Positions 27,548-29,616 of a DNA stretch of 45,252 bases are shown piece after piece. Under the pieces are notes generated by a model. That model was not told the origin of the DNA, did not search any database, and saw only the letters and a program-made list of their open reading frames with translations. The position numbers and the translations under genes are program-made. Origin of the DNA: Candidatus Gottesmanbacteria bacterium (GTDB lineage Bacteria > Patescibacteriota > Microgenomatia > 2-02-FULL-39-11). How positions within the stretch are numbered: position 1 is the stretch's first letter; every line of letters starts with the position of its first letter. The DNA is taken from positions 1 through 45,252 of the forward strand of contig JACPZE010000023.1 in the NCBI GenBank assembly GCA_016195685.1, written 5' to 3'.

Positions 27548-28921
27548 TTATATTATATTGAGTTTCTGATTAAAATAATTATCTAATTTGTCTATAGCTA
27601 TTCTTTCCTGTATCGCGGTATCTCTATCTCTTACAGTCACTGTATCATCTTTTAACGTATCGTAGTCTATCGTTACACACCAAGGCGTACCTATCTCATC
27701 TTGAGCATAATATCTTTTCCCAATATTTCCCCTGCCATCAAATATGCAAGTAAACTGAGGCTTAATTTTTTTATAAACTGATTGTGCTTTTATCATTATA
27801 TCCTCTTTATTGGCAACAAGAGGAAAAATCGCCACTTTGTATGGGGCTAAATATGGTTTCAGTTTCAGTACCACTCTTTTTTCGTCTTCATAATATGAAG
27901 ACAGCAGTATTGCTAACAAAGTACGATCCACTCCCCATGTAGGCTCAATTACATGAGGAATATACGATTCTCCTGTTTCCTGATCGTGGAAACTCAAGTC
28001 CTGGCCAGAATACTTCTGGTGGCTTGTCAGATCATAATCTGTTCGATATGCCAAACCATAAAGTTCTTTTGTGCCAAAAGGATAATCAAACTCAAAATCA
28101 ATAGTCCTTTTTGAATAATGTGCCCTCTCCCTACCAGGAATTTCATGCTCATGGACTTTTTTGCCATCAATTCCTACCAGATCAAACCATCGCCACATTT
28201 CTTTTCTCCATTCTTCGAAATATTTCTGCCATTCCTCATCTTTCTTTGGAGATGAGATAAAATATTCTATTTCCATCTGCTCTAATTCACGAAGACGAAA
28301 CAGAAAATTACCAGTTGTAATCTCATTTCTGAAAGCCTTTCCAATTTGGGCTATACCAAATGGTAACTTTTTTGGAAAACTAGAAAGAATATTTTTGAAA
28401 TCAATAAACATACCTTGGGCTGTTTCGGGCCTAAGATATGCAACACTAGCAGAATCTTCAACAGGACCCAAATGGGTTTTAAGCATCATATTAAATTGCT
28501 TTACTTCTCCCCAAACATGTTTTCCATCTTTAGCTTTCGGACAAGTTAATTGTTCGATAAATGCAGACTTGGGATTTACATTACCAACACCCTGAACTTT
28601 AGAGTTGTGGAATTCATCAATAATATCTGGACGAAGTCTTGTATTGCAAAGTTTGCATTCTCTCAAAGGATCGGAAAAACCAGCTATATGTCCGGAAGCT
28701 TCCCAAACTTTCGGATTCATAATTATTGCAGCATCTAAACCCAATATATCATCTCGCCCATGAACAAAGGTTTTCCACCACAATTGCTTGAAATTGTTTT
28801 TCAGTTCAATTCCCAAAGGTCCAAAATCCCAAGAATTAGATAATCCTCCATAGATTTCAGATCCGGGATAAACAAAACCCCGTCTTTTGCAAAGTGAAAC
28901 TATTTTTTCCATCAAATCCAT
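27548..28921 (-). CDS. glyS: Glycyl-tRNA synthetase (alpha2 type)
   Basis: A class II aminoacyl-tRNA synthetase, 457 residues from ATG 28921 (a second ATG at 28912 gives MEKIVSLCKRRGF and is nearly as good). The GTG at 28936 lies inside the terminator hairpin and is rejected. Seen in order: YGGLSNSWDFGPLGIELK, the zinc-ligand-like CKLCNTRLRPD, YLRPETAQGMFIDF, KAFRNEI (motif 2), EPTWGVDRTLLAIL (motif 3) and a C-terminal anticodon-binding domain (APYKVAIFPLV). This is the single-chain type of archaea, eukaryotes and many bacteria, not the E. coli alpha2beta2 form. Its expression should be set by uncharged tRNA-Gly through the T-box immediately upstream. Confidence 0.96.
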   Translation of the reverse strand: MDLMEKIVSLCKRRGFVYPGSEIYGGLSNSWDFGPLGIELKNNFKQLWWKTFVHGRDDILGLDAAIIMNPKVWEASGHIAGFSDPLRECKLCNTRLRPDIIDEFHNSKVQGVGNVNPKSAFIEQLTCPKAKDGKHVWGEVKQFNMMLKTHLGPVEDSASVAYLRPETAQGMFIDFKNILSSFPKKLPFGIAQIGKAFRNEITTGNFLFRLRELEQMEIEYFISSPKKDEEWQKYFEEWRKEMWRWFDLVGIDGKKVHEHEIPGRERAHYSKRTIDFEFDYPFGTKELYGLAYRTDYDLTSHQKYSGQDLSFHDQETGESYIPHVIEPTWGVDRTLLAILLSSYYEDEKRVVLKLKPYLAPYKVAIFPLVANKEDIMIKAQSVYKKIKPQFTCIFDGRGNIGKRYYAQDEIGTPWCVTIDYDTLKDDTVTVRDRDTAIQERIAIDKLDNYFNQKLNII

Positions 28922-28957
28922 AAAAATAGGACTCACCCTTTCTTTAGGGACGAGTCC
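28922..28957 (-). terminator. Intrinsic terminator of the glyS T-box leader
   Basis: The minus-strand RNA forms GGACUC (28957-28952) with GAGUCC (28934-28929), extended inside by CCCU pairing with AGGG, around an A-rich loop, and followed by UAUUUUU. The CCCU of its 5' arm is also the 3' partner of the antiterminator, the normal mutually exclusive design. The 3' arm holds AAGGGUGAG, the only plausible Shine-Dalgarno sequence for the ATG at 28921. Confidence 0.85.
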
Positions 28958-29047
28958 TTACCCGCGGTTCCACCCTATTTCCCCATCTTCTAGACGGGAC
29001 TCTTTATTTTCTGGCTCCCCTATGCCATTAGGATCACAGCCTATTAT
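28922..29047 (-). ncRNA. T-box riboswitch (glycine), upstream of glyS
   Basis: The leader between recO and glyS holds the diagnostic T-box sequence AGGGTGGAACCGCGGG (28976-28961). Its TGGA bulge would pair with the tRNA acceptor end, and the A fits a U discriminator as in bacterial tRNA-Gly. Before it a 7-bp hairpin (CCCGTCT/AGATGGG) occupies the Stem III place. At the 5' end GGCU/AGCC (29041-29038 with 29016-29013) and CCUA/UAGG enclose the six-base loop AUGGCA (29028-29023). This loop contains GGC, a glycine codon, followed by a purine, as specifiers are. Canonical Stem I is far longer; here it is one short hairpin. A terminator hairpin follows. Glycine specificity comes from three independent signs: codon, discriminator match and gene. 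Confidence 0.88.
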
Positions 29048-29051
29048 GCTA

Positions 29052-29079
29052 ATTATATATTTGAATTAATCTTTGTCAA
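29052..29079 (-). promoter_or_regulatory. Consensus promoter for the glyS T-box transcript
   Basis: On the minus strand TTGACA (29079-29074), a 16-bp spacer and TATAAT (29057-29052) match the sigma-70 consensus at all twelve positions. The -35 and spacer lie in the last codons of recO, and the -10 overlaps its stop. Start of transcription is expected near 29047-29045, immediately before the specifier hairpin. Confidence 0.75.
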
Positions 29080-29616
29080 TAAACTGTCGCTTTTTAGATT
29101 CTTTTCCATCACTTCTGCAAGATACCCTTGCAGTTCAGACCTTTCTAATAATTTTCCCCTTACCAAGTAGCCTAGATCCCATAAAGTATGAAGAGTAAAT
29201 TCATCAATTATTTCCCTTATATTCTGATTTTCTGCTTTATTTAATTTTCTTAAAGTAATTAATAAAAAGTCGAATATATTTTTATGCTCTTGACGCTCCG
29301 CACACAATCTATCCAATATTTCTGCAATAGAATATGCAAAAGCGACCTTTTCCAAGTCCGTTCTCAAATTCATAAATGACTCTTTGGTATAGGCTTCAGT
29401 TAAGATATCTAGATTTCTTCCATTTGCCGCAAAAAAGGATGTGTGCGTAAATAATTCTAGGTGCGGAGCTTTCTTACTATGGATAGAGCGGATTCCTTTA
29501 GCTATAAGTACAATTTTCCCTAAATTCTTGGTGAATATCGTTAATAGTTTATCTTTTTCACCTATGTTGATACGTTTCAGTACTATTCCCTCGGCCTTAT
29601 AGGATCTGTAGATCAC
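29053..29616 (-). CDS. recO: DNA repair protein RecO (short form)
   Basis: A 187-residue RecO, the mediator that helps load RecA in the RecFOR pathway. The N-terminal OB fold is clear: YKAEGIVLKRINIGEKDKLL, TIFTKNLGKIVLIAKGIRS, then LELFTHTSFF. The helical C-terminal part follows (VAFAYSIAEILDRL, FDFLLITLRKL). Typical RecO is 230-250 residues; the shorter tail here lacks the cysteine cluster found in some members. The start is GTG 29616, overlapping the upstream stop as GTGA. Its 3' end carries the promoter of the glyS transcript. Confidence 0.9.
   Translation of the reverse strand: MIYRSYKAEGIVLKRINIGEKDKLLTIFTKNLGKIVLIAKGIRSIHSKKAPHLELFTHTSFFAANGRNLDILTEAYTKESFMNLRTDLEKVAFAYSIAEILDRLCAERQEHKNIFDFLLITLRKLNKAENQNIREIIDEFTLHTLWDLGYLVRGKLLERSELQGYLAEVMEKNLKSDSLLTKINSNI

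Follow-up and report, generated by a model that had tools for sequence, protein, structure and literature searches.

The window analysed here, a 45,252-nucleotide stretch of DNA from Candidatus Gottesmanbacteria (contig JACPZE010000023.1), carries recO and dimeric glyS on its minus strand, with a T-box leader lying between them (Table 1). The ATG at 28921 is better placed as the glyS start than the GTG at 28936 of the open reading frame list, because the latter lies inside the terminator. A preliminary description, made from the sequence of the window, had proposed that a probable CPR bacterium carries a glycine T-box whose specifier stem is ultrashort. Its assignment of the host is borne out by a Gottesmanbacteria MAG (L141), which shares 100% identity over 2765 nt with a genome belonging to the window's family (L036). 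The leader reads, in order, AAUA-GGC-UGU-GAU-CCUA-AUGGCA-UAGG-GGA-GCC-linker-Stem III-AGGGUGGAACCGCGGG, and the last of these, the T-box sequence, occupies 28976-28961 of the minus strand.

Table 1 Features of the glyS leader and its flanking genes, with positions in the window
Feature	Position	Strand	Basis or remark
recO, upstream gene; stop at 29053, end overlapping the promoter	29053..29616	(-)	TIGR00613, 99.6 bits
Sigma-70-type promoter TTGACA-16-TATAAT, 12/12, overlapping the recO 3' end	29052..29079	(-)	predicted start ~29045
T-box leader of dimeric glyS	29041-28922	(-)	lying between recO and glyS
Ultrashort Stem I, 29 nt: GGC/GCC, kink-turn signature UGU-GAU/GGA, CCUA/UAGG	29013..29041	(-)	sequence; covariation
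Specifier GGC (glycine) in the 6-nt apical loop AUGGCA, then A29023	29024..29026	(-)	sequence; codon-gene match in relatives
Linker AGAAAAUAAAGAG, standing where Stem II and IIA/B would be; 3' portion compatible with the RRRxG purine string	29000..29012	(-)	sequence, folding
Stem III hairpin UCCCGUCU-AGA-AGAUGGGG, then AA	28981..28999	(-)	-9.8 kcal/mol
Antiterminator: A1 AGGG/CCCU, A2 GCGGG/CUCGU	28946..28976	(-)	sequence, covariation, folding
Antiterminator 7-nt bulge UGGAACC	28972-28966	(-)	sequence
Intrinsic terminator GGACUCGUCCCU-AAAGAA-AGGGUGAGUCC-UAUUUUU	28922..28957	(-)	hairpin -17.5 kcal/mol
glyS, dimeric glycine--tRNA ligase, regulated gene	27548..28921	(-)	NF003211, 589.6 bits vs cut-off 312

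The T-box sequence AGGGUGGNACCGCG lies in an antiterminator with a 7-nt bulge (28976-28946). The segment CUCGUCCCU is common to the antiterminator and the terminator, and the two folds are thus mutually exclusive. Folding gave -17.5 kcal/mol for the terminator hairpin (28957-28929) and -7.3 to -8.7 kcal/mol for the antiterminator. The Stem III-like hairpin (28999-28981) and the competing terminator with its U-tract, both of which had been noticed in the preliminary description, were recovered by this folding. A terminator consensus scan of the window found nothing, because the terminator stem contains a one-base bulge, and the terminator was taken from the folding instead. Stem II is absent from the window leader, in which a 13-nt linker and a single hairpin, Stem III, lead from Stem I to the antiterminator.

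Stem I had been estimated at about 30 nt, and the 29 nt found here (29041-29013), with a promoter directly upstream, agree with that estimate. By sequence, this stem carries the signature of a kink turn, with the 3-nt loop UGU, GA opposite GA, and U opposite G, and the GA/GA signature with a 3-nt loop also occurs in five orthologous leaders. Of the two helices originally described, CCUA/UAGG stands, whereas GGCU/AGCC is better read as GGC/GCC closing the kink turn. The GGC triplet is exposed in the six-base loop and followed by A, as proposed, and no other conserved specifier was found elsewhere in the leader.

The predicted transcription start derived from the 12/12 promoter sits approximately 4 nt before Stem I and not far upstream, which, with the end of recO overlapping the promoter, excludes a long Stem I in the window. 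Promoters scoring at least 10/12 precede 27 of 39 related glycine leaders, compared with 3.6% of shuffles, and the median distance from the -10 element to Stem I is 10 nt (29 leaders with promoters of at least 9/12), so that a longer Stem I would not fit in most leaders. The search of the leader with the Rfam T-box model RF00230, which the preliminary description had suggested, matched 28943-29088 with an E-value of 1.2e-9, a rough figure as for all covariance-model E-values here, and with 48.4 bits; the gathering score is 93, a curated cut-off and not a mechanistic feature. At the gathering threshold, Rfam gave no match in the window, and none of the 20 loci tried, mostly ultrashort relatives, reached that threshold. 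The alignment is stretched, since the long Stem I of the model is laid over the promoter and reaches into recO. Taken at face value, this extended match would favour a canonical long Stem I upstream, with the GGC hairpin being incidental; such a reading is highly improbable, as the upstream part aligned by RF00230 is the promoter itself, the pairs of the short stem covary, and the related promoters also lie close to Stem I.

Covariation was evaluated in five leaders of the family (L035, L036, L041, L043, and L048), which were found via GlyS or RF00230 and without any short-stem model; in the fetched loci, only 5 of the 14 GlyS-bearing family genomes had a T-box core beside glyS. All five family glyS leaders share the short-stem design. 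In a plain sequence alignment, 93% of their cells pair and six pairs are changed on both sides, with a covariation score of 0.372 that was reached in none of 500 shuffles and compares with 0.02-0.16 in slid controls. The basal helix varies among the family leaders (GGC/GCC, GAUAC/GUAUC, UGCAGU/GCUGCA, and UGC/GCA), and in L036 a U-A pair of CCUA/UAGG is replaced by C-G. Among 57 aligned relatives, 92.7% of cells are paired and 244 are double-changed, compared with 75 in shuffles and at most 74 in slid controls (0/500), although these sequences were aligned by fitting to the model, with a few doubtful rows among them, so the five-leader test is the cleaner one. The upper helix is free to vary among these relatives and occurs as CUUGA/UCAAG, CGCU/AGCG, CUCA/UGAG, GGCA/UGCC, CGG/CCG, and GGG/CCC. 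The alignment of related leaders, another check suggested at the outset, thus indicates that the short stem covaries. The genomes are mostly MAGs, and all of the evidence is comparative.

The specifier and the discriminator agree with the same tRNA. The glycine tRNA with an encoded CCA in the host genome is tRNA-Gly(GCC), which has U73, and the UGGA of the antiterminator bulge matches this nucleotide. The loop of Stem I presents GGC followed by a purine, and glyS lies downstream. A parser for a kink turn and hairpin, which is blind to the codon and the gene but requires the GA positions, found such an element in 45 of the 136 stretches of 150 nt lying upstream of T-box cores, compared with 38 of 5000 random 110-nt windows. 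In 44 of the 45 parses the loop codon specifies the amino acid of the downstream gene. The agreement for GGC is partly selected, since the derived models and the pattern favour GGCA loops, while this applies less to the GGA specifiers of two glyS leaders (L210 and L213) and to the non-glycine cases. The latter comprise GAC in the leader of an aspartyl-tRNA synthetase gene of non-discriminating type (L166), ACC and ACG in the thrS leaders L182 and L218, UGG before trpS (L183), and CGC before argH (L200), an Arg case. With a second parser, which favours GA positions without requiring them, Stem I measures 28-39 nt across 44 parsed leaders, and the UGGA bulge is present in 43 of 43 glycine relatives; the other counts for these 43 leaders given below come from this second parser too. 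The glycine T-box with an ultrashort specifier stem is thereby upheld by orthologue conservation, covariation, promoter position, and the discriminator match to tRNA-Gly.

A match below the Rfam gathering score in a small genome could also be expected if a longer T-box had decayed into a non-functional remnant. We consider this scarcely credible, since compensatory changes occur and the UGGA, the kink turn, and the promoter are kept across many genera, which together with the codon-gene agreement points to selection.

The window leader was compared with the two known kinds of T-box. In canonical transcriptional T-boxes, the end of a long Stem I binds the tRNA elbow (PMC7583486). The Bacillus and Geobacillus glyQS/glyQ leaders (RF00230, transcriptional, class I) resemble the window leader in GGC followed by a purine, the lack of Stem II, the kink turn at the base of Stem I, Stem III, an antiterminator with a UGGN bulge, a terminator, and a glycyl-tRNA synthetase gene downstream. 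However, their Stem I is long, displays the specifier in a side bulge, and carries a distal interdigitated double T-loop, which stacks against the tRNA elbow, whereas that of the window leader measures 29 nt, with an apical-loop specifier and no such elbow-binding module. The ultrashort actinobacterial T-boxes need Stem II and the IIA/B pseudoknot (PMC7583486). Actinobacterial ileS leaders (translational, class II) share the short kink-turn Stem I, the apical specifier, and the absence of an elbow-binding module, but differ in having Stem II with an S-turn, the IIA/B pseudoknot, an Ile codon, and a hidden Shine-Dalgarno (SD) sequence. The window leader lacks Stem II with its S-turn and the pseudoknot, reads GGC, and ends in a terminator (a hairpin followed by UAUUUUU) in place of terminator-free SD sequestration. 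Judged on its sequence, it has the core features of the T-box family (T-box sequence, specifier, UGGN, terminator, and kink turn) at a score below gathering, and lacks what defines either known sub-type, the long Stem I or Stem II. A review has proposed that weak codons require Stem II and that GGC can do without it (PMC7583486), and the missing Stem II of the window leader fits this proposal. The absence of Stem II, the retention of the kink turn, and the wide occurrence of the element had been overlooked in the preliminary description.

We therefore propose a working model in which the glyS leader is very probably a minimal T-box, consisting of a kink-turn GGC hairpin, a discriminator, and a terminator, that senses uncharged tRNA-Gly. 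The 29-nt Stem I, bent by the kink turn, would present GGC to the anticodon GCC of tRNA-Gly, and the short linker would run directly into Stem III and the antiterminator discriminator, where the UGGA bulge would pair with the UCCA end of the uncharged tRNA. When glycine is short, uncharged tRNA would bridge both points, and the antiterminator would form and allow glyS to be transcribed. When tRNA-Gly is charged, the bulge would not be productively occupied, and the terminator would form and end transcription in UAUUUUU just before the ATG of glyS. The antiterminator (-7 to -9 kcal/mol alone) would prevail over the terminator (-17.5 kcal/mol) only with the help of the tRNA. Binding of the tRNA, sensing of its aminoacylation, and termination in the cell by the window leader are accordingly predictions of this model. 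The leader lacks both of the elements thought to provide tRNA affinity, the elbow module and Stem II, and the minimum RNA for reading a tRNA becomes directly testable on a transcript of approximately 125 nt.

Control of the window glyS at the level of transcription is strongly indicated. The hairpin at 28957-28929 includes in its 3' arm the SD-like stretch GGGUGA, approximately 10-15 nt before the ATG, and could thus act as a translational switch that hides this stretch, as in actinobacterial ileS. Hairpins that appear to sequester the SD sequence and lack a U-run occur in some relatives (L101, L103, L105, L106, and L116). Such a switch is nevertheless unlikely in the window, where UAUUUUU follows the hairpin and the U-run reaches directly into the ATG, and a hairpin with a U-run is found in 32 of 43 glycine relatives, two of these calls being weak. 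The minimal sensor seems to couple to either output, a terminator or SD sequestration.

The lack of further hairpins is common to the relatives. In 40 of 43 glycine relatives, Stem I and the antiterminator are separated by at most one hairpin, and the distance between these two elements is 19-66 nt, with one exception of 98 nt. We infer that the elbow module and Stem II have no substitute contact in the window leader. A variant that overlaps with the minimal T-box retains the T-box reading and supposes that one of these elements has been replaced, for example by an elaborated Stem III or a kink-turn-binding protein. Eight relatives (L089, L094, L101, L103, L106, L107, L202, and L209) have an elongated Stem III with a recurring apical loop of the UGGAnnnCA type, whose UGGA is also complementary to the UCCA end of tRNA-Gly, and kink turns bind L7Ae-type proteins (PMC7583486). 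Stem III of the window leader, on the other hand, is a plain 8-bp hairpin, and in two glyS leaders (L098 and L099) the antiterminator follows Stem I after only 19-24 nt, with no foldable Stem III. A replacement of this kind is a minority possibility that we regard as rather improbable. Stem III has been reported to be indispensable in T-boxes (PMC7583486).

Searches at the genus and order levels returned nothing beyond the family, and broader searches revealed related leaders. A covariance model built from the five leaders gave matches in 72 of 374 genomes of the window's class. The strong matches are glycine leaders, mostly of glyS and also of glyA (L103 and L106) and purU (L089/L024 and L094); among the weaker matches, many are T-boxes for other amino acids, and these were left out of the glycine set. 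A second model gave matches at E 1e-6 or better in 22 of 380 genomes of the phylum, and the element is therefore present outside the window's class too. A pattern scan located the ultrashort form in Gottesmanbacteria, Roizmanbacteria, Collierbacteria, Woesebacteria, other Microgenomates, Paceibacterota, and Dojkabacteria within the CPR. Outside the CPR, where the range is that of the pattern scan alone, exact matches in named genomes came from two Anaerolineae, five uncultured Clostridia, and one Bacillales MAG. Hits in Firmicutes (Alkalibacillus, Halalkalibacter, Vagococcus, and others) resemble ordinary T-boxes with a long Stem I and were not counted, and four further hits (L132, L137, L142, and L152) look like chance matches in coding DNA. 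In Dojkabacteria, a glyQ/glyS fusion, which encodes a GlyRS of an unrelated type, carries the same leader design. A subset of the gene names is backed by profile matches, and the rest come from reading the translations.

On balance, we lean towards regarding these leaders as a distinct and widespread class of mostly transcriptional minimal T-boxes, which would use two tRNA contacts only, without elbow contact or Stem II. The class would serve Gly and, less often, Asp, Thr, Trp, and Arg. Its members would be spread over the CPR as well as some Chloroflexota, Clostridia, and Bacilli, and would score under the standard model's cut-off. The standard T-box model misses such leaders at its curated cut-off. 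The comparative data also suggest that CPR bacteria regulate aminoacyl-tRNA synthetase and one-carbon genes (glyA and purU) by tRNA charging. In the open-licence literature, we found no paper that pairs T-boxes with CPR, Patescibacteria, Microgenomates, or Chloroflexi, which does not prove the absence of earlier reports of such leaders. TBDB applied its class II model to Actinobacteria and to class I hits having a truncated Stem I (PMC7778990), and some members may already be included in TBDB without comment.

Several arrangements were observed among the relatives. The purU gene, encoding formyltetrahydrofolate deformylase, stands under a glycine T-box in L024/L089 and L094, which likely links glycine supply to tetrahydrofolate recycling for GlyA. 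Tandem ultrashort glycine T-boxes occur in L096, L104, L106, and L108; the first copy in L106 ends in a terminator, and its second copy, located before glyA, has an apparent SD sequestrator. An aspartyl-tRNA synthetase gene (L214) is preceded by a hairpin with an apparent AAC (Asn) specifier and a UGGC bulge, which would be consistent with an AspRS charging tRNA-Asn as well.

The host genome contains further T-boxes. Five more fall below the Rfam cut-off (L004, L002, L006, L003, and L001) and include those of ileS (L004, AUC), an archaeal-type PEP carboxylase (L002, GAC, Asp), ornithine cyclodeaminase (CCC, possibly Pro), argH, and a gene weakly similar to homocitrate/isopropylmalate synthase, the last with a long Stem I. 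An ultrashort-type His T-box with CAC in the loop GUCACGA and a UGGG bulge lies before hisG on contig 18 (L007:1501-1836). The ileS, PEP carboxylase, and hisG leaders resemble the glycine leader in their apical-loop specifiers (AUC, GAC, and CAC) and in a hairpin with a U-run. By eye, these three keep a Stem II/IIA/B-like region, whereas the glycine leader has none, and the ileS and PEP carboxylase leaders contain a CCGUUA or CCGUGA box. The UGGG of the His T-box matches C73 of tRNA-His. Its terminator directly precedes a second tRNA-His(GTG) gene (C73), which is followed by hisG, while in two related genomes (L179 and L185) a T-box and hisG occur without the tRNA. The T-box of L007 may thus control a tRNA gene.
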